DNA of 64,000 nt from Chloroflexota bacterium (GTDB lineage Bacteria > Chloroflexota > Anaerolineae > Anaerolineales > Villigracilaceae): positions 310,001-374,000 of the forward strand of contig JAIOOU010000017.1 of NCBI GenBank assembly GCA_021414245.1. The letters run 5' to 3'. This document shows, one piece after another, positions 2,749 through 60,475 of the stretch. The notes below the pieces were generated by a model. That model saw nothing but the letters and a program-made list of their open reading frames with translations, had not been told where the DNA came from and made no database searches. Position 1 is the first letter of the stretch; every line of letters begins with the position of its first letter. The position numbers were made by a program, and so were the translations under genes.

Positions 2749-3432
2749 ATGCCTCAAACTGTATTGATCGTTGATGATGAAAAACGCCTGGTATCCCTCG
2801 TGCAAAGCTACCTGACCCAGGAAGGCTACCGCGTGGTCACCGCCTACAATGGCAAAGAAGCCCTGGATGTATCCCGGAAGGAAAAACCGGATCTGATCAT
2901 CCTGGATATTATGATGCCGGAGATGAACGGCTATGACTTCATGCGTACCCATCGCACCGGGCGCGACACCCCTATTATTATGTTGACCGCTAAAGTGGAG
3001 GATGACGACAAGGTGATCGGACTTGAACTTGGCGCGGATGATTATGTGGCCAAACCCTTCAAACCACGCGAACTCATGGCGCGTGTCCGCAATGTGCTCC
3101 GCCGCGCGGGGAAATCCGAACCCAAGGGAAAAACCTTGCGGGTGGCGGATATCACCCTGGACCGCGACAGCCGCGAAGTATTCGTGGGCGAGCGCAGCAC
3201 AGACCTGACACCCTCTGAATTCGACCTGCTGGCCGCACTCATGACCACGCCCGGGCGGGTGTTTTCCCGGCTTGACCTTCTGGACGTGATCCAGGGAGTC
3301 CGCTACGAAGGCTATGAACGGACCATCGACACTCATGTCAAAAATCTACGGGCCAAGATCGAATCCGACCCGCGCAAACCCCTTCACATTGAAACAGTGT
3401 ATGGGGTTGGCTATCGCCTCAATAAAGGTTGA
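2749..3432 (+). CDS. OmpR/PhoB-type response regulator
   Basis: A 227-residue two-component regulator. The receiver domain (residues 3-115) has the acidic pair D9-D10, the phospho-acceptor D53 in an ILDIMMPE context, and the switch lysine in YVAKPF near 102. A winged-helix DNA-binding domain (about 130-225) ends with the usual VYGVGYRL strand. I chose the ATG at 2749, preceded by AAAAGAAG, over the TTG at 2731. Three bases separate it from the kinase gene downstream, so the two are co-transcribed and form a cognate pair. Targets are unknown; the flanking small membrane proteins are candidates. Confidence 0.92.
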   Translation: MPQTVLIVDDEKRLVSLVQSYLTQEGYRVVTAYNGKEALDVSRKEKPDLIILDIMMPEMNGYDFMRTHRTGRDTPIIMLTAKVEDDDKVIGLELGADDYVAKPFKPRELMARVRNVLRRAGKSEPKGKTLRVADITLDRDSREVFVGERSTDLTPSEFDLLAALMTTPGRVFSRLDLLDVIQGVRYEGYERTIDTHVKNLRAKIESDPRKPLHIETVYGVGYRLNKG

Positions 3433-3435
3433 CCC

Positions 3436-4776
3436 ATGCGATCCCTGACCTCAAAATTGATCCTGGCCTTTCTTGCCGTCAGCCTCATCAGCATTTTCGT
3501 GGTGGTGGCATCCACGCGCTTTTCCACCAACCGCGAATTTGACAAGTTTCTTTCCAACCAATACGAAACCGAACTGGCGACCGAACTGGCCAGATATTAT
3601 GAAATCAATAACACCTGGGATCAGGTAGACCGGGCCTATCTGGGTCAAACCGCCATGCAGTTCGGTCCACAAGGAGACCGGCCTTCGAATTTTTGCGTGA
3701 CCGATGCCAAAGGCATCGTCGTCATGGAAAGTTTCGCCCACAAAATCGGCGACACGGTCAACGCAGAAATTCTCAAGACAGCCACGCCCATTCAATCGAG
3801 CTCGCAGACCATTGGGTATTTGTTAATCGAAAGACCGCCGGATCGAAGGGATCCCATGGGGGATGAATTCATCAAACGCCTGGACCTCTCCCTGCTTGTG
3901 ACCGCCATTGGCACGATCATCCTGGCTTCCATCTTCGGAACCTTTCTATCACGCACCATCAGCCGCCCCATTCGCGAGTTGACCCGGGCCACGCACGAAA
4001 TGGCTGGTGGCAAATTCGGCCAGCAGGTCCCGGTCCGTTCCCGTGATGAGATCGGCGAACTGGCGTCCTCCTTCAACAAAATGAACGACGATCTGGCCCG
4101 CTCCTTCAATCTTCGCAAACAAATGACCGCCGACATTGCCCACGAATTGCGCACACCGCTCAGCCTCATCATCGGCCACGCCGAAGGAGTCCACGATGGT
4201 GTCCTGCCGCCTTCCAGGGAAAACTTTGAGATCATCCGCGAGGAGGCGGGCCGCCTCGAACAACTCGTCAACGATCTGCGGACTCTCTCCCTTGCCGACG
4301 CCGGGGAACTCTCGATGGATTTCCAAAGCGTTGAGATCAACAAACTCCTGGGCGATCTCAAATCTCATTACATGGTTCATTTCAATCAGAAACGCATCGC
4401 TCTTGACCTCGAGCCTGCCCCGGCCAGCCTGCGGGCAAATCTTGACCCGGTCCGTTTCACGCAGGTGTTGACCAACATCCTTGAAAATGCGCTTCGCTAT
4501 ACACCCGAGAATGGGCGCGTACTCATTGCCAGCATTGAGAAAAATGGAAATATTGAAATCGTAATTCAAGACAACGGCGAGGGGGTTTCCCCCGGGGATG
4601 CCGCCCATCTTTTTGACCGATTCTACCGGGCAGATTCCTCGCGCACCCGCGATGAAGGCGGCTCAGGCCTGGGGCTGGCGATTGCCAAATCCATCATTGA
4701 AATGCATCACGGAAGGGTCTGGGCCGAAAGCCAAAAAGGCAAGGGCCTGGCAGTCCATATTCTATTACCATCCTAA
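3436..4776 (+). CDS. Sensor histidine kinase (HAMP-HisKA-HATPase)
   Basis: A 446-residue membrane kinase partnered with the regulator just upstream. It has an N-terminal helix (about 7-27), an extracytoplasmic sensor segment (30-145), and a second helix (about 152-173). A HAMP linker follows (175-225), then HisKA with the phosphorylated His236 in an AHELRTPL box, and a HATPase_c domain with N box (ENALRYTPE), DNGEG and GSGLGLAI motifs. All catalytic boxes are intact. The stimulus cannot be read from sequence. It ends before a bidirectional terminator at 4804-4843. Confidence 0.92.
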   Translation: MRSLTSKLILAFLAVSLISIFVVVASTRFSTNREFDKFLSNQYETELATELARYYEINNTWDQVDRAYLGQTAMQFGPQGDRPSNFCVTDAKGIVVMESFAHKIGDTVNAEILKTATPIQSSSQTIGYLLIERPPDRRDPMGDEFIKRLDLSLLVTAIGTIILASIFGTFLSRTISRPIRELTRATHEMAGGKFGQQVPVRSRDEIGELASSFNKMNDDLARSFNLRKQMTADIAHELRTPLSLIIGHAEGVHDGVLPPSRENFEIIREEAGRLEQLVNDLRTLSLADAGELSMDFQSVEINKLLGDLKSHYMVHFNQKRIALDLEPAPASLRANLDPVRFTQVLTNILENALRYTPENGRVLIASIEKNGNIEIVIQDNGEGVSPGDAAHLFDRFYRADSSRTRDEGGSGLGLAIAKSIIEMHHGRVWAESQKGKGLAVHILLPS

Positions 4777-52598: not shown

Positions 52599-52627
52599 TT
52601 GCCCCGCGAGTCACACTGGCTTATAAT
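52599..52627 (+). promoter_or_regulatory. Putative sigma-70-type promoter for the FAD-subunit gene
   Basis: TTGCCC at 52599-52604 and TATAAT at 52622-52627 are separated by 17 bases, followed by GGAGG at 52640-52644 and ATG at 52650. This is the best-formed promoter in the window. Confidence 0.6.
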
Positions 52628-52649
52628 AAAGACACCTCCGGAGGCAAAT

Positions 52650-53402
52650 ATGATCACGACGTATCACCGCCCACAGACACTCGCAGAAGCCCTGACCCTT
52701 TTGTCTCAACCGAACAGCCTGCCCCTCGGAGGTGGGACGCTTCTCTCCCACCCGACAACTGATCCCGTCCAGGCCGTGGACTTGCAGGCCCTGGGCCTTA
52801 ATTCGATCAACAAAAAAGGCAACGACCTCGAGATCGGCGCAACCGCAAGCTTGCAATCCCTGCTGGAAAACAGCGCCTGTCCCGACGCCCTGAAAACCGC
52901 CATTAAACTTGAAGCACCGATCAACATCCGCAACTCCGCCACCGTCGCAGGAACCCTGGTTGCGAGTGACGGGCGTTCTCCATTTGCGACGGCGCTTCTT
53001 TCGATGGACACAAGGATCGAGCAGGTCACCCTTGCAGGTTTAAAGATCGAATCGAAGATCTTGAACAGCGGGGAATTCCTGCCACTGCGCCCCGCGAACC
53101 TGATCATAAAAATCCTCCTACCGCTCAATACAAAATTCGCCTTTGATTTCGTCTCCCGCACGCCCGCGGACAAACCCATCGTGTGTGCCGCGTTGACGCA
53201 ATGGGCTTCGGGCCGCACCCGGCTTGCGCTGGGCGGCTATGGCCGAAGTCCCATGCTGGCCATGGACGGGACAGAAGCCGACGGTCTTGAAACCGCGGCC
53301 CGAAATGCATATCATGAAGCCAATGACGAATGGGCCTCCGCCGAATATCGCATGGATATGGCTGCAACTCTGGCGAAAAGATGTTTGGAAACCTTCCAGT
53401 AA
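52650..53402 (+). CDS. FAD-binding subunit of a molybdenum hydroxylase (YgfM/XdhB/CoxM-like)
   Basis: A 250-residue FAD subunit. The N-terminal YHRPQTLAEALTLLSQPNSLPLGGGT is the standard start of the family, with the GGGT pyrophosphate loop, and IRNSATVAGTLV matches the second FAD contact. The CO dehydrogenase C-terminal domain follows (about 160-245). It lacks iron-sulfur cysteines. It would pass electrons from the XdhD-like subunit (57518-60475) to NAD+ or another acceptor, though two unrelated genes lie between. GGAGG at 52640 sets the start. Confidence 0.86.
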   Translation: MITTYHRPQTLAEALTLLSQPNSLPLGGGTLLSHPTTDPVQAVDLQALGLNSINKKGNDLEIGATASLQSLLENSACPDALKTAIKLEAPINIRNSATVAGTLVASDGRSPFATALLSMDTRIEQVTLAGLKIESKILNSGEFLPLRPANLIIKILLPLNTKFAFDFVSRTPADKPIVCAALTQWASGRTRLALGGYGRSPMLAMDGTEADGLETAARNAYHEANDEWASAEYRMDMAATLAKRCLETFQ

Positions 53403-53421: not shown

Positions 53422-54489
53422 GTGAGCACCCTGCCCTTGAACCAGATCCTGCATGGTAATTGCATCGAGATTCTCAATTCGCTTCCTGAGAACTCGGTGG
53501 ATTTGGTGTTCGCCGACCCCCCGTATAATCTGCAATTACAAAATGATCTGTATCGGCCGGACTTGAGCAAGGTGGATGCAGTCAATAATAAGTGGGACAA
53601 ATTTCATAGTTTCGCTGAGTACGACCAGTTCACGTACGAGTGGCTATCCGCAACGCAAAAGGTGTTGAAAGAGACCGGCACCATTTGGGTCATCGGGTCG
53701 TATCACAATATCTTTCGTGTGGGCGCGATCCTGCAGGACCTGGATTACTGGATCCTGAACGATATCATCTGGTTGAAGACCAATCCCATGCCGAATTTTC
53801 GCGGCGTGCGATTCACGAATGCACATGAGACCATGATCTGGGCGCAGAAGAAAAAAGGCGCGAAATACGTCTTTAATCATCATTCGATGAAAGCCTTGAA
53901 TGAGGATTTACAGATGCGGTCGGATTGGGTCCTTCCGCTGGCCACGGGCAGGGAACGTATCAAGTCCAACGGTTTAAAGGCGCATCCGACGCAGAAGCCG
54001 GAGTCCTTGCTGTATCGTGTGATCCTGTCCAGCAGTAATTCAGGAGACGTGATTCTCGATCCGTTCTTTGGGAGCGGCACCACCGGAGCGGTGGCAAAGA
54101 AATTGGGGCGCAACTACATTGGCATCGAACGTGACAAGAAATATGTCAAAGTTGCGCAAAAGCGAATCGACACGGTCGAGAGTTCCCCGCTGGAAACGCT
54201 GACCCTGCCCGAGAAACGGAATCAGGTTCGGGTTCCGTTTGGAGCGTTGCTGGAAGCCGGATTTCTCTCTCCAGGCCAAAGTCTGTACTTTAAAGAAGAT
54301 AAAACCATTCGCGGCGTCATCCAGTCGAATGGCCATTTGAAATACAAGGGCCAGGCGGGTTCGATCCACGGCCTGGCAAAATCCATTGCAGGCGGGGCAG
54401 TGAACGGCTGGGATATGTGGATGTATAAAGAGAACGGCAAGTTGAAAGCCATCGATGAATTGCGCGAAAAAATAAGAGCTTCAAAATAA
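53422..54489 (+). CDS. ccrM: CcrM-like DNA adenine methyltransferase with RAMA domain
   Basis: A 355-residue N6-adenine methyltransferase. DPPY lies at 32-35 and FFGSGTTG at 215-222, the beta-class order. The stretches NDLYRPDLSKVDAV, IWVIGSYHNIFRVGA, WLKTNPMPNFRG, NAHETMIWA, QMRSDW and HPTQKPE closely resemble Caulobacter CcrM, as does the C-terminal RAMA domain (about 265-355; VPFGALLEAGFLSPGQ, GSIH, NGW). CcrM recognises GANTC and is not partnered with a nuclease. No restriction gene is adjacent, so this is probably an orphan enzyme. GTG at 53422 is the best start; upstream in-frame codons would overlap the previous gene. Confidence 0.9.
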   Translation: MSTLPLNQILHGNCIEILNSLPENSVDLVFADPPYNLQLQNDLYRPDLSKVDAVNNKWDKFHSFAEYDQFTYEWLSATQKVLKETGTIWVIGSYHNIFRVGAILQDLDYWILNDIIWLKTNPMPNFRGVRFTNAHETMIWAQKKKGAKYVFNHHSMKALNEDLQMRSDWVLPLATGRERIKSNGLKAHPTQKPESLLYRVILSSSNSGDVILDPFFGSGTTGAVAKKLGRNYIGIERDKKYVKVAQKRIDTVESSPLETLTLPEKRNQVRVPFGALLEAGFLSPGQSLYFKEDKTIRGVIQSNGHLKYKGQAGSIHGLAKSIAGGAVNGWDMWMYKENGKLKAIDELREKIRASK

Positions 54490-54502: not shown

Positions 54503-57412
54503 ATGTCCAAATCCTTTAACCTGATCGAAGAAAAGCACATTCCCGAATTGAACGCAACCGCCAAATTGTACATTCACAAACGCACCGGTGCGCGCCTGCT
54601 CTCGGTGATCAACGACGATGAGAACAAGGTCTTCTCGATCAACTTCCGCACCACCCCCAGGGATTCGAGCGGGGTCGCACATATTCTGGAACACTCGGTT
54701 TTGGGCGGCTCGGAAAAATATCCCGTCAAGGAACCGTTCGTGGAATTGCTAAAAGGTTCGCTGGCCACCTTTGTCAACGCCTTCACCTACCCGGACAAAA
54801 CCTGTTATCCAGTCGCCAGCCAAAACCTGCAGGATTTTTACAACTTGATCGACGTGTATATCGACGCAGTCCTGCATCCTTTGATCACGGAAGAGACCCT
54901 GATGCAGGAAGGCTGGCATTTTGAACTGGACGACCCGGCAAATCCGCTCACCTACAAAGGCGTGGTCTTCAATGAAATGAAAGGTGCGTATTCATCGCCC
55001 GACAACCTGTTGGCGCGCACCATCCAGCAATCGCTCTTTCCGAAGCATGTCTACGGCGTGGACTCTGGCGGTGATCCGCGAAACATCCCGGACCTGACCT
55101 ACGAAGCCTTCAAGGCTTTTCATACGACCTATTACCACCCATCCAACTCCTTCATCTTTTTCTATGGCAATGACGATCCTGACAAACGCCTGAAGTTAAT
55201 GGACGGATATCTAAAACCCTACAAGAAACTCAAGGTTAAATCGCTTGTGCCGCTTGCCAAACCGTTCAAAAGCCCAAAGAAAGTCCAGTATTCATACGAC
55301 GCGGGCCAGGACACCAATATCAAGAAGAAGCATTATTTCACGATCAACTGGCTGCTGCCGGACACCTCCGACCCGGTCCTGGATTTCAGCCTGCAAATTC
55401 TCGCAAACATTTTGATCGGCACGCCCGCTTCGCCACTTAAGAAGTCCTTGCTGGATTCAGGACTGGGTGAAGATCTGGCGGGCATCGGTCTTGAAAATGA
55501 ATTACGCCAGCAGATATTTTCCACCGGTTTGAAGGGCACCCGCTCTGCAGATGCGAAGAAGATCGAAACCCTGATCTTTGACACCCTTGAATCCCTGGTC
55601 CGTGAAGGCATCGACCCGGACATGATCGCCGCCTCCATCAATACGCTCGAATTCCGCTTGCGTGAAAACAACACCGGTTCCTTCCCGCGCGGCATCGCCC
55701 TGATGCTGCGCGCCCTGACCACCTGGCTGCACGAGGACGATCCCTTCAAACTGCTGGCCTTCGAGGCCCCGCTCAATGAAATCAAATCCAGACTCGCCTC
55801 CGACAAACAGTATTTTGAAAAGATGGTTCAGACTCATTTACTGGAAAATGTCCACCGCACGACTCTGCGGTTCAAACCCGACCCGGAAATTGGGCGGCAA
55901 TTCGAGGAGGAGGAGAAATCCCGGCTGGCCGCCATCCGCGAATCGATGAGCACCACCCAGTTGAAGGAATGTGTGAAGAACACACAAAAGCTCAAAAAAC
56001 TTCAGGAGACCCCCAACTCACCGGATGCTCTGGCCACCATGCCTTTCCTGCAGCTTTCCGATCTGGAAAAACAAAACAAGACCATCCCGATCGAAACCAT
56101 CAAGGTGCAGGACACCACTGTGCTCTTTCACGATATCTTCACCAACGGGATTGTATATCTTGACCTGGGATTTGATCTGCACACGCTCCCCGCGGAATTA
56201 CTGCCGCTGACAGAGATCTTCGCGCGCGCCCTGGTCGAAATGGGCACGGACAAGGAGGATTACGTAAAACTCTCCCAGCGTATCGGCAAGAGCACCGGCG
56301 GCATCCATGGCAGTGCGGTCAGCACCACCATGCGCGGGTCCAGGGAGAATGTCAGCAAACTCTTCATGCGCGGCAAGGCCACCGCAGGCCAGGCCGGCGA
56401 ATTATTGAATATCTTCAAGGACATTTTGCTCAACACAAAATTCGACAACCGTGAACGCCTGAAGCAGATCGTGCTGGAGGAGAAATCCGGATTGGAATCC
56501 TCCCTGGTCCCGAGCGGGCATATTTACGCCAACCAGCGCGTGCGCGCTAAATTCGGCGGTGCAGGCTGGGTCAACGACCAGATAAGCGGCATTGGCTATC
56601 TCTTCGCGCTGCGCGATCTTGCAAAGGACATAGACAAAAAGTGGGACACGGTCCTGAAGAAGCTGGAGACCCTGCGTGACGCGTTGATCAGCAGCCGCTC
56701 TCTGATCTGCAATGTGACCCTCGACGCCGAACATTGGAAGACCTTCCGCCCCCGCCTGGAGAATTTCATTTTTGCCCTGCCCGACAAAGAAGTAACCCTG
56801 AAACCATTCGACATCAAGGCAAAGATCGAAAAGGAAGGTCTGACCATCCCGGCCCAGGTAAATTACGTGGGCAAGGCCGCCAGCTTATATGACCTCGGCT
56901 ATGAATACGACGGCTCGGCGGAGGTCATCACCGGCTATTTGAGAATGGCCTACCTGTGGGAAAAGATCCGCGTGCAGGGCGGAGCATATGGCGGCTTCTG
57001 CGTCTTTGACAGCAATTCCGGCGTGTTCTCCTTCCTCTCGTATCGCGACCCGAATCTCGACGCAACGCTGAAGCATTACGACCATGCCGCAGATTACCTA
57101 AAGGGTTTGGATGCCGGATCCTTGAGCGACGGCGAACTGACCAAGGCTATTATCGCCGCCATCGGCGATCTGGACGCCTACCAATTGCCGGATGCGAAAG
57201 GCTACACTTCCATGCTGCGCTACCTGACCGGCAGAACCGATGCGATCCGCCAAAAGGAACGCGATGAAATCCTGTCCACCAATGGCGAGGACTTTATCGC
57301 CTTTGGCGAAGTATTGGAAAAGGCCGCCAAATCCGAAGCCGTGGCCGTGATTGGTTCACAGTCCGCGATCGAAGGCTCGAAGGCCAAGCTGAAAGTGACA
57401 AAGGTTTTGTAA
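54503..57412 (+). CDS. M16C family metalloprotease (presequence-protease type)
   Basis: A 969-residue peptidasome. The inverted zinc motif HILEH (about residues 55-59) lies in DSSGVAHILEHSVLGGS, with the distal Glu in NEMKGAYSSP. Four tandem M16 half-domains are linked by a central helical hinge (about 480-540). Sequence and length match PreP, which degrades short unstructured peptides; no signal peptide is seen, so it is likely cytoplasmic. It lies 13 bases after ccrM, with GGAG-like sequence before the ATG. Confidence 0.92.
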   Translation: MSKSFNLIEEKHIPELNATAKLYIHKRTGARLLSVINDDENKVFSINFRTTPRDSSGVAHILEHSVLGGSEKYPVKEPFVELLKGSLATFVNAFTYPDKTCYPVASQNLQDFYNLIDVYIDAVLHPLITEETLMQEGWHFELDDPANPLTYKGVVFNEMKGAYSSPDNLLARTIQQSLFPKHVYGVDSGGDPRNIPDLTYEAFKAFHTTYYHPSNSFIFFYGNDDPDKRLKLMDGYLKPYKKLKVKSLVPLAKPFKSPKKVQYSYDAGQDTNIKKKHYFTINWLLPDTSDPVLDFSLQILANILIGTPASPLKKSLLDSGLGEDLAGIGLENELRQQIFSTGLKGTRSADAKKIETLIFDTLESLVREGIDPDMIAASINTLEFRLRENNTGSFPRGIALMLRALTTWLHEDDPFKLLAFEAPLNEIKSRLASDKQYFEKMVQTHLLENVHRTTLRFKPDPEIGRQFEEEEKSRLAAIRESMSTTQLKECVKNTQKLKKLQETPNSPDALATMPFLQLSDLEKQNKTIPIETIKVQDTTVLFHDIFTNGIVYLDLGFDLHTLPAELLPLTEIFARALVEMGTDKEDYVKLSQRIGKSTGGIHGSAVSTTMRGSRENVSKLFMRGKATAGQAGELLNIFKDILLNTKFDNRERLKQIVLEEKSGLESSLVPSGHIYANQRVRAKFGGAGWVNDQISGIGYLFALRDLAKDIDKKWDTVLKKLETLRDALISSRSLICNVTLDAEHWKTFRPRLENFIFALPDKEVTLKPFDIKAKIEKEGLTIPAQVNYVGKAASLYDLGYEYDGSAEVITGYLRMAYLWEKIRVQGGAYGGFCVFDSNSGVFSFLSYRDPNLDATLKHYDHAADYLKGLDAGSLSDGELTKAIIAAIGDLDAYQLPDAKGYTSMLRYLTGRTDAIRQKERDEILSTNGEDFIAFGEVLEKAAKSEAVAVIGSQSAIEGSKAKLKVTKVL

Positions 57413-57426
57413 AGATCATCTTGTGC

Positions 57427-57497
57427 GTGTCATTTTGAAGATGGCGAAGAATTTCAACGATAACAATAAAGACTCTTCGCGACATTCAGGGTGACAC
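57427..57497. repeat. Degenerate palindromic intergenic repeat
   Basis: Outer arms (57427-57439 and 57485-57497) form an imperfect inverted repeat sharing TGACAC/GTGTCA ends, and inner arms GCGAAGA and TCTTCGC (57443-57449, 57474-57480) are perfect. The pattern resembles REP-like elements (GTCATTCTGA...GCGAAGAATC) common in intergenic DNA of Chloroflexota and others. It could also act as a hairpin between two genes. Confidence 0.45.
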
Positions 57498-57517
57498 ATT
57501 CAAATGAAGGACCCAAC

Positions 57518-60475
57518 ATGAACATTACGCTAAAGATCAACGGCATTGAACACACGATGGATGCGGCTCCCTCCACTACCCTGCTTTCGGCCCTGCGCGG
57601 ACTGGGCTTCCATGGCGTCAAGTTCGGAGACGAAGGCGGATTATCCGGATCGGATACCGTTTTGCTGGAAGGCAGGCCGGTCAACGCGGGCTCATTGCTG
57701 GCGGCGCAGGCGGAAGGTCACAGCATCGCCACCATCGAGGCGCTCGGCGAACACCCGGAACAAGGCTGGAAATTAACCGATGGCCTTCATCCCCTGCAAA
57801 AAGCCTTCGTGGAAACAGGCGCAATCCAATGCGGATACTGCACACCCGCGCAAATTCTGGCCGCGAAATCCCTGCTGGAAAAAAATCCAAACCCAAGCGA
57901 AGCCGAAGTCCGCGAGGCGATCTCGGGGGTATTGTGCCGCTGTACGGGTTATCTGAAACCCGTGCAAGCCGTATTGAAAGCGGCCGCGGAAATCCGCGGG
58001 GACGAACCGGTGGAATGGAATGCGATCAACTGGGATTTTGGCGGCTCGCCAAAGGATTCCCCAAACAGCGATTTTTCCACCCCGCAAACCGCCGGCGTCA
58101 TGACGCGCCCCAAAGTGGTGCTCACCCCTGAATCAAAGACCTGGCAGACGGTCGGCAAGCCTGAAATAAAAGTGGATGCCGTCAAACTGGTGCAGGGCAA
58201 GCCTGCCTTCACAGCTGACTTTGAAAAACGCGGGTTATTGCATGCGAAAGTATTACACTCACCGCACGCGCATGCGCTCATTAAAAAAATAGACGCCAGC
58301 AAAGCAAAGGCCTTGGCAGGAGTCGCCGCCGTATTAACCTGGCAGGATATTCCGCGGGTCGTGTATTCCACTGCGGGTCAATCGGACCCGATTCCCGGTC
58401 CGCTGGATGCGTTTTCGTTGGATAAAAAGGTCCGCTTTGTTGGGGACCGGGTGGCTTTCGTGGCCGCCGAAACTGCCGAGATCGCCGAAAAAGCGCTTGC
58501 ATTGATCGAGGTCGAGTATGAGGTGCTGACTCCCATCCTTGATTCGAGACAGGCCATGGGGAGTCCGATCCGCATCCACGATGAGCCGGAGTATGTCAAC
58601 TTTGCGGATTCGAACCCTGAAAAGAATCTCGCGGCCGAGATCCGCATCGACATTGGCAATGTGGAAAAAGGATTCGCGGAAGCCGACCAAATCTTTGAAG
58701 CGGAATATGAAGTCCCCAAGGTGCAGCAGGCGCACATTGAACCGCATGTCTGTGTCACTTACTGGGATGAGGATGATCGATTGGTCATCCGGACATCCAC
58801 GCAGGTGCCGTTCCATGTAAGGAGGATGCTTGCCCCGGTGCTCGGATTGCCTGTTAAGAGAATCCGGGTGATCAAGCCGCGCATCGGCGGGGGATTTGGC
58901 GGCAAGCAGGAAGTTCTGATGGAAGATGTAGCAGCACACCTGACCATTGCCACCAAACAACCCGTGCTTTACGAATACTCGCGTGAAGAGGAGTTTATCG
59001 CTGCGCGTTCGCGCCACCCGATGCGGATCAAAATGAAGACCGGCGTGAAAAAGGACGGCACAATTACCGCCAACTCGATGTACGCGCTTTCAGATACAGG
59101 CGCATACGGCTGTCACGCACTGACCGTCACAGGCAACACCGGTCACAAGGCCATGGCTTTATATGTCGGCGATGGCGAATATCGCAAAGCGCCCAACATC
59201 CGCTTCTATGCAGATGTGGTCTACACCAACACACCGCCCTCCGGAGCCTTTCGCGGCTATGGCGTGCCGCAGGGTTATTGGCCGCTGGACCGCCACATGG
59301 AAAAGATCGCGCGCGCCATGGGTTTTGACCCGATCGACTTTCGTCTGAAGAACGCCATCCATCCAGGAGAATATCATCCGTTTTCGACCGCCTGGAACGA
59401 AGGACGCGAGCCGCGCCCGGAGATCATCCATACGGTTGGCCTGGAACAATGTGTGGCCCAGGGCCGCGCAGCCATTGGCTGGGACGATAAATTTGGAAAT
59501 GAGAAATGGCACAGCCAGATGATGCCAAGGACCAGAAAAGGCATCGGTGTTGCCATGGTCATGCAAGGGACAGCGATCCCCTATCTGGACATGGGCGGGG
59601 CATCCATCAAGATGAACGACGACGGCTCTTTCAATCTTTTGGTCGGCGCCACCGATCTCGGCACAGGCTCGGATACGGTCCTTGCCCAAATGGCCGCCGA
59701 GGTCCTGGGGATTCCCGTGGAAGACATGATCTGCTATTCCTCCGATACAGACTTCACACCTTTTGACAAGGGTGCCTACGCTTCCTCAACCACATATATC
59801 TCCGGGACGGCCGCGGTCAATGCTGCCAGGATCGTGGCGGAGCGGGTCAGGGTCCGTGCTGCGATGATGCTGAATCTTGAAAAACACGACGACATCAAAC
59901 TGGAGAATCGGCAGGCCATTGCACCGGACGGAAGGTCCGTAAGCATGGCCGAGATCGCCCTTGATTCGCTGCACAAAAATAATCAGGAGCAGATCATGGG
60001 CGTGGCGAGTTATGTTTCCCCGGTATCCCCTCCGCCTTTTGCGGCGCAATTTGCCGAGGTGACCGTGGATGTGGAAACCGGGCAGGTCACGGTCGACAGG
60101 CTGGTCATGGCGGTGGATTCGGGTGTGATCGTGAATCCGTTGACGGCCTCGGGTCAGATCGAAGGCGGGATGACCCAGGCACTCGGGTATGCAGTTTGCG
60201 AGGAAATGCGCTATGATGAAAAGGGAAATGCCATCGAACGTGATTTTGAACGGTATCACATCTTCCGCGCGGATGAAATGCCCGAGCTGGAGACCATCTT
60301 TGTCGAGACGTTTGAACCGAGCCATCCGTTCGGCGTGAAAGCGGTAGCCGAGATCCCGATGGACGGGGTGGCTCCGGCTGTGGGAAATGCCATACTCGAT
60401 GCGGTCGGCGCCAACGTGGATGACAATCCAGTCACGCCTGAAAAGGTGTGGCGGGCAATGAAAAAAATCAATTAG
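57518..60475 (+). CDS. XdhD-like molybdenum hydroxylase, fused FeS and Mo domains
   Basis: A 985-residue protein. Residues 1-80 are a ferredoxin-like domain whose cluster ligands are gone: the usual Cys positions are D38, S43, D46 and a Gly/Ser near 56. Residues 85-160 keep the second [2Fe-2S] site (C105, C108, C140, C142). Residues 210-985 are the molybdenum domain with KPRIGGGFGGKQE and AFRGYG. The missing first cluster also marks E. coli XdhD, which lacks both. Substrate may be a purine or related heterocycle. ATG 57518 follows GAAGGA. Confidence 0.85.
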   Translation: MNITLKINGIEHTMDAAPSTTLLSALRGLGFHGVKFGDEGGLSGSDTVLLEGRPVNAGSLLAAQAEGHSIATIEALGEHPEQGWKLTDGLHPLQKAFVETGAIQCGYCTPAQILAAKSLLEKNPNPSEAEVREAISGVLCRCTGYLKPVQAVLKAAAEIRGDEPVEWNAINWDFGGSPKDSPNSDFSTPQTAGVMTRPKVVLTPESKTWQTVGKPEIKVDAVKLVQGKPAFTADFEKRGLLHAKVLHSPHAHALIKKIDASKAKALAGVAAVLTWQDIPRVVYSTAGQSDPIPGPLDAFSLDKKVRFVGDRVAFVAAETAEIAEKALALIEVEYEVLTPILDSRQAMGSPIRIHDEPEYVNFADSNPEKNLAAEIRIDIGNVEKGFAEADQIFEAEYEVPKVQQAHIEPHVCVTYWDEDDRLVIRTSTQVPFHVRRMLAPVLGLPVKRIRVIKPRIGGGFGGKQEVLMEDVAAHLTIATKQPVLYEYSREEEFIAARSRHPMRIKMKTGVKKDGTITANSMYALSDTGAYGCHALTVTGNTGHKAMALYVGDGEYRKAPNIRFYADVVYTNTPPSGAFRGYGVPQGYWPLDRHMEKIARAMGFDPIDFRLKNAIHPGEYHPFSTAWNEGREPRPEIIHTVGLEQCVAQGRAAIGWDDKFGNEKWHSQMMPRTRKGIGVAMVMQGTAIPYLDMGGASIKMNDDGSFNLLVGATDLGTGSDTVLAQMAAEVLGIPVEDMICYSSDTDFTPFDKGAYASSTTYISGTAAVNAARIVAERVRVRAAMMLNLEKHDDIKLENRQAIAPDGRSVSMAEIALDSLHKNNQEQIMGVASYVSPVSPPPFAAQFAEVTVDVETGQVTVDRLVMAVDSGVIVNPLTASGQIEGGMTQALGYAVCEEMRYDEKGNAIERDFERYHIFRADEMPELETIFVETFEPSHPFGVKAVAEIPMDGVAPAVGNAILDAVGANVDDNPVTPEKVWRAMKKIN

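Follow-up and report, generated by a model that had tools for sequence, protein, structure and literature searches.

The window, by which we mean the whole 64,000-nucleotide stretch that was analysed (contig JAIOOU010000017.1, positions 310,001 to 374,000), derives from a Chloroflexota bacterium of the order Anaerolineales and contains, among molybdenum-hydroxylase genes, a ccrM-like gene. The relevant features of the locus are the following.

52599-53402, plus strand: FAD subunit of a molybdenum hydroxylase, upstream, ending 19 bp before ccrM; it marks a locus conserved in the family
53422-54489, plus strand: ccrM-like gene (355 codons plus stop, 355 aa, GTG start) for a putative orphan beta-class adenine-N6 DNA methyltransferase with the predicted target GANTC
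53497-54162, plus strand: N6_N4_Mtase domain (PF01555), residues 26-247 (Pfam E 8.5e-66)
53515-53526, plus strand: DPPY catalytic motif, residues 32-35, read from sequence and alignment
54196-54480, plus strand: C-terminal DNA-binding RAMA domain (PF18755), residues 259-353 (Pfam E 6.2e-13)
54503-57412, plus strand: PreP-like M16 peptidase, downstream, 13 bp after ccrM
57491-60475, plus strand: fused Mo/Fe-S subunit of a molybdenum hydroxylase, the other side of the conserved locus

The first-pass annotation had described the gene as embedded between two molybdenum-hydroxylase genes; both are present, but the M16 peptidase gene also sits between ccrM and the gene for the Mo/Fe-S subunit. Since ccrM and the flanking hydroxylase and peptidase genes all lie on the plus strand, their expression as one transcription unit is plausible. 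The additional claim that no restriction partner is found nearby agrees with our scan of 11 neighbours (ten by Pfam, plus the Mo-hydroxylase gene), none of which encodes a nuclease.

Judged by its sequence, the window gene encodes a CcrM-family adenine methyltransferase. Its likeness to the Caulobacter enzyme over the full length, as proposed at the outset, is borne out by the Pfam match to RAMA and by the solved structures, among which Caulobacter CcrM (6pbd) ranks first (E 4.9e-134, residues 8-354) and is followed by 5hek (named DpnA), which matches only residues 8-250 of the window protein (E 1.1e-33). The window protein and Caulobacter CcrM are 58% identical over 346 aligned residues, with 66% identity for the methylase domain and 39% for RAMA. 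The score against NCBIfam model NF050803 is 545 bits and stays below the cut-off of 830 bits; the window protein is thus a homolog within the family and not an equivalog of the Caulobacter type. Among the matches listed, the top five named relatives are MAGs of Chloroflexota / Anaerolineales. The genome itself (3.87 Mb, 17 contigs, 98% complete) has a single ccrM copy; beyond it, the window protein matches only two fragments of another methylase at E <= 0.001.

The functional residues of CcrM were taken from the available part of the structure paper (PMC6787082) and read off an alignment of 109 proteins; 38 of the 45 positions are identical to those of Caulobacter CcrM. Differences occur at seven positions, namely G39 and G40 (lining the variable N of GANTC), L43 (a main-chain contact), N47 and K126 (protein-protein contacts, the main chain of K126 also touching C5), and the structural P271 and L283 (PMC6787082). 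K126 is replaced by R in the window protein, as it is in 16 of the 20 rows of the alphaproteobacterial clade. Identical to Caulobacter are the GANTC-reading residues R44, L38, L42, Y93, H94, F63, I110, M122, P123, F125 and R129, the catalytic-motif residues D31, P32, P33, Y34, T191 and K193 (DPPY and TQKP motifs), and the RAMA residues S315, H317, N330, W332 and R350. Because R44 (which reads the G), the A pocket, the T-reading residues and the remaining residues of the C-holding loop are all kept, GANTC is the predicted target, and the enzyme is probably GANTC-specific, in line with the motif named in the first-pass annotation. The text of the structure paper, as far as it was available, names Tyr109 in the recognition of T, but the Caulobacter chain in 6pbd has W at this position, a residue also present in the window protein and in all 107 rows counted in the alignment.

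The occurrence of such a gene outside the Proteobacteria had been put forward as a surprise; it has, however, been in print for some time. The tree of Gonzalez and others (2014; PMC3973325) holds CcrM homologs from "some Chloroflexi" that, like the window protein, possess the C-terminal domain, and Hiraoka and others (2019; PMC6329791) reported GANTC m6A in three Chloroflexi MAGs, at 87.6%, 92.8% and 98.7% of the sites. According to the sections of the latter paper available to us, the MAGs BS3 and BD1 (CL500-11, likely Anaerolineae) each carry a GANTC-type methylase without a nuclease, whose best REBASE match is the GANTC methylase M.SstE37II (58.9% identity), and 93% and 99% of the GANTC sites, respectively, bear m6A. 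These methylases share with the window gene the phylum, probably the class, and, as far as the scanned neighbours of the window gene show, the lack of a paired nuclease, a likeness drawn from their description and not from their sequences; the MAGs differ in that TTAA and GCWGC are also methylated there (PMC6329791). CcrM in Chloroflexota is therefore already known. Added here are its near-constancy within a family, its presence as one copy per genome, its apparent exchange, and the absence of a Caulobacter-type footprint; set against the available portion of PMC3973325, the locus, copy number and replacement of ccrM in Chloroflexota are treated only in the present analysis. Judging by titles and the openings of abstracts, we found no paper on either the replacement or the copy number of CcrM in this phylum.

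The ccrM gene is a core gene of its Anaerolineales family. With a match threshold of E <= 1e-60, a CcrM match was obtained in 85 of 100 family genomes, exactly one in each (two of these are truncated where a contig ends and a third contains an internal stop), in 60 of the 65 good genomes (at least 90% complete and at most 5% contaminated), and in 23 of 26 genera. The gene is not indispensable, since 15 of the 100 genomes, five of the 65 good ones among them, have no match. In the class, 64 of 298 genomes have a match, comprising all 14 of the own family, five of six from the rest of the order, and 45 of the 278 others. Matches in the phylum (62 of 301) stem most often from the own family and from families f70 and f80; some of the weaker matches span the methylase domain only. 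Among plasmids, 23 records matched at E 1e-60; they belong to six genera, all of which we take to be alphaproteobacterial. No INPHARED phage record matched at E 1e-50, and 39 loci of the viral_contigs collection matched, two of which (L283 and L284) are close.

A tree of CcrM-like proteins, a step suggested in the first-pass annotation, places the window gene in a Chloroflexota clade and the sampled alphaproteobacterial rows apart from it. This quick unrooted tree with SH-aLRT support contains 109 proteins: 87 from Chloroflexota, 20 that make up the alphaproteobacterial clade (19 and a viral row), one from Armatimonadota, and one other viral protein. Of 68 alphaproteobacterial loci (L058-L126 without L082), which had themselves been chosen by their likeness to the window protein among the matches listed, 15 were retained, and four duplicates (L048, L049, L258, L273) were left out. 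The sampled alphaproteobacterial rows group with one viral row into a clade of 20 members (support 99), and the window gene falls outside it. The window gene belongs to a clade of 38 (support 98), in which 36 rows come from the own family and the other two from named Chloroflexota MAGs. Further own-family rows lie outside this window clade, namely four of genus g5 (100), four of genus g23 (96), and seven in a mixed clade (99) whose 12 members further include a pair of rows each from class family f17 and phylum family f70, together with one phage contig. The window genus has rows in both the window clade and the mixed clade, and monophyly of its 11 rows is rejected (AU p 1.3e-72), with the group for this test picked by genus after two identity classes had been noticed.

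The composition of the window gene is ordinary: its GC content of 0.505 lies at the 14th percentile of 295 genes, its GC3 at the 64th, and its codon-usage distance at the 42nd percentile of 139 genes. Given this composition and the separate clade of the sampled alphaproteobacterial rows, recent transfer from Alphaproteobacteria is not supported. The horizontal transfer envisaged in the first-pass annotation thus lacks support, as an import from Alphaproteobacteria, for the window copy, which is found family-wide at a fixed locus and outside their sampled clade; among Chloroflexota lineages, transfer is supported for other copies by the mixed clade and the AU test. The window gene is under purifying selection, with dN/dS values of 0.057, 0.109 and 0.049 against three same-genus copies, of which only the direction can be trusted because dS is saturated (above 1.5) in all three pairs. 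On the IMG/VR contig L284 (18.3 kb; positions 3001-3855), a mixed-clade CcrM whose RAMA part is missing or diverged adjoins a gene for a head protein.

The position of the gene in other genomes was assessed by tblastn with the window's neighbours, and a copy was scored as lying at the hydroxylase locus when the fetched sequence, of up to about 8 kb, included at least one of the two hydroxylase genes in the same orientation (G099 was scored via the named contig L049). By this measure, 39 of 51 fetched own-family copies are at the locus. They comprise 35 of the 36 window-clade copies (the exception is G025) and all four from genus g23, which are for this reason probably resident copies too; none of the four g5 copies and none of the seven in the mixed clade lies there. 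Placement of both hydroxylase genes covered 21 genomes, five with CcrM at the locus, 14 with CcrM elsewhere, and G010 and G021 without CcrM. In the five, the hydroxylase matches are at least 1,150 bp apart. In the 14, no CcrM lies in the gap between the hydroxylase genes, which measures 8 bp in G041, 48 bp in G028 and 36 bp in G027, and which in ten further genomes spans unread sequence of 1.7 to 12.7 kb; in G002 the two genes are on different contigs. The gap is 23 bp in the CcrM-free genome G010, and in G021 the FAD gene was looked for and not found. A search for a remnant of the resident ccrM at the hydroxylase locus gave nothing at E <= 0.01 in nine genomes (eight with CcrM elsewhere, and G010).

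In the two best-sampled genera, g1 (12 genomes) and g17 (11 genomes), all 23 genomes have exactly one copy, 17 of them at the locus and six elsewhere, and the four of these six that were fetched all fall into the mixed clade. If the two sorts of copy occurred independently, such perfect exclusion would arise with a chance of 1 in 100,947, a value uncorrected for kinship. In g1 and g17, replacement of the resident gene fits these data best. Apparently, the resident CcrM has been exchanged in some genomes for a divergent CcrM lineage lying elsewhere, a pattern that rests on 12 fetched off-locus copies that are related to one another. The three mixed-clade copies for which 17-kb pieces were available have differing neighbourhoods: G044 has ligA, G078 an EcoRI-type methylase together with a GmrSD-like gene, and G041 an FHA gene. 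In G044 (L258:7953-11092), the mixed-clade ccrM and ligA are read in the same direction and share 4 bp at the end of ligA, which has the look of one operon with the DNA ligase gene, and in G078 (L259:5091-8814) the EcoRI-type methylase and the GmrSD/HNH gene near ccrM constitute a possible defence patch.

In the Alphaproteobacteria, GANTC is reported in the part of PMC3973325 consulted to be at least two-fold depleted and more than 1.5-fold enriched between genes. Using a simple codon-usage gene caller, we obtained for 68 pooled alphaproteobacterial loci (1.04 Mb), which all surround ccrM and are thus not a random sample, a coding O/E of 0.37 and an intergenic/coding density ratio of 2.09. A 464-kb sample of the own genome that includes the window has 1415 coding GANTC sites (O/E 0.88) and 174 intergenic ones (O/E 0.89). 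The density ratio is 1.01 (95% bootstrap 0.85-1.19), or 0.96 for the 100 bp of non-coding sequence that precede genes; the promoter bias for which the first-pass annotation had proposed to look is consequently not seen there. In other carriers the ratio is 1.00 (G008), 1.12 (G063), 0.79 (G058), 0.87 (G330) and 0.70 (G593), with coding O/E values of 0.80, 0.87, 1.36, 0.60 and 0.56, respectively. The non-carriers G340, G109 and G131 have ratios of 1.11, 2.03 and 1.35 and coding O/E values of 1.24, 0.33 and 0.42. Depletion is hence seen in two carriers (G330 and G593), but equally in two non-carriers (G109 and G131). GANTC bias was rejected as a CcrM footprint in Chloroflexota, as neither the density ratio nor the coding O/E follows the gene in the nine sampled genomes. 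The alphaproteobacteria-like bias of G109 (L173-L182), a CcrM-negative relative from the class, may be caused by composition, its GC content being 68%.

GcrA (PF07750) was found in none of 21 genomes, the own genome included and 14 of them of good quality, with a profile that matched in the Caulobacter control but also, oddly, in Sulfolobus. A dnaA gene could be placed in all 20 genomes searched for it. The Caulobacter-like cell-cycle role that had been considered for the gene loses ground, with GcrA and intergenic GANTC enrichment both absent and the respective controls positive in Caulobacter and Alphaproteobacteria. Since, according to the available part of PMC4752239, regulatory regions generally show no enrichment of the motifs of orphan methylases, even when they are enriched in unmethylated sites, a missing motif bias does not exclude regulation. 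The missing GcrA and the missing enrichment speak against the Caulobacter circuit with limited force. Taken side by side, the window gene and Caulobacter ccrM agree in domain order, the DPPY motif, the GANTC-contact and RAMA residues, and the lack of a nuclease among the scanned neighbours; the window gene differs by its sequence identity, its score below the NF050803 cut-off, its locus among molybdenum-hydroxylase genes, and the lack of both GcrA and intergenic GANTC enrichment.

On balance, we consider it probable that the window gene encodes an active orphan GANTC methylase, a core enzyme of the family that is usually kept, by vertical descent, at the hydroxylase locus, whose mark is itself selected, and that has a housekeeping role without the GcrA-CcrM circuit. 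The enzyme, whose activity and motif are predicted with high confidence, would methylate GANTC across the chromosome, and the resident copy at the molybdenum-hydroxylase locus would be passed on vertically, one per genome. Where it is absent, a divergent CcrM elsewhere may supply the GANTC methylation. The single copy and the exchange of lineages suggest that methylation itself is under selection, whichever enzyme makes the mark. Most likely, the enzyme would act by a chromosome-wide mark linked to replication or repair in a Dam-like manner, and not through GcrA and GANTC-enriched promoters. Dam (GATC) is an orphan enzyme that sets a chromosome-wide adenine mark linked to replication or repair; it differs from the window enzyme in motif and family, and we infer only a similarity of role. 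A housekeeping function, suggested mainly by conservation, is the most likely cellular role, and this is the weakest step of the explanation. A bolder version, to which we give slightly less than even chances, holds that GANTC methylation is a core trait of the family that outlives its enzyme, with a lost resident CcrM being succeeded by a mobile, possibly phage-carried CcrM of a distant lineage, one per genome, in a role outside the GcrA-promoter circuit.

True CcrM-type regulation, in which cell-cycle-timed methylation, aided by some partner that is not GcrA, would govern the promoters of genes for division and replication, appears unlikely. It would accord with the strong conservation within the family, with a fully conserved enzyme that includes S315 and W332, both needed in vivo in Caulobacter (PMC6787082, as far as available), and with the many orphan methylases for which regulatory regions contain unmethylated sites but no excess of the motif (PMC4752239, available part). 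Against it stand the failure to find GcrA in any of the 21 genomes and the intergenic/coding ratios of the own genome and the five other carriers (0.70-1.12 in the latter, compared with 2.09 in the Alphaproteobacteria); furthermore, enrichment in the CcrM-negative G109 indicates that it does not track the gene.

We regard as rather improbable the idea that the gene is an immunity determinant or restriction leftover, that is, a solitary methylase exchanged via phages and mobile DNA that shields the chromosome from GANTC-cutting restriction systems or phage nucleases. The second lineage, spread across distant Chloroflexota and present beside a head-protein gene on a phage contig, would fit such a function, as would the surroundings of the G078 copy. 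The window lineage, however, is under purifying selection and stays at a single locus in all but one of its 36 family rows, no nuclease was detected among the scanned neighbours, and 60 of the 65 good genomes keep one copy, which in our judgement is more than a defence gene would show. That the enzyme is inactive or of another specificity is highly improbable: five residues of the recognition loops (39, 40, 43, 47 and 126) do differ from Caulobacter, but D31, Y34, R44, Y93, H94, R129, T191 and K193 are invariant in all 87 Chloroflexota rows, the gene is under purifying selection, and GANTC methylation has been measured in Chloroflexi MAGs (PMC6329791, sections available to us).

CcrM and the cell-cycle circuit of the Alphaproteobacteria are usually taught together, and here they come apart: the enzyme is retained almost throughout the family as one copy, with its specificity residues intact, yet no GcrA and no GANTC footprint were found. 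The replacement pattern is, in our view, the part worth following. A lineage that seems to swap the enzyme but keep the mark offers a natural test of the purpose of GANTC methylation beyond the Alphaproteobacteria. The own genome also encodes a second methylase of the N6_N4_Mtase family (422 aa; G000:C6:635725-636993, corresponding to L160:15725-16993, plus strand). It is present in 75 of the 100 family genomes, in 52 of the 65 good ones and in all 26 genera, and is also carried by G010 and G021, the two genomes without a CcrM match.
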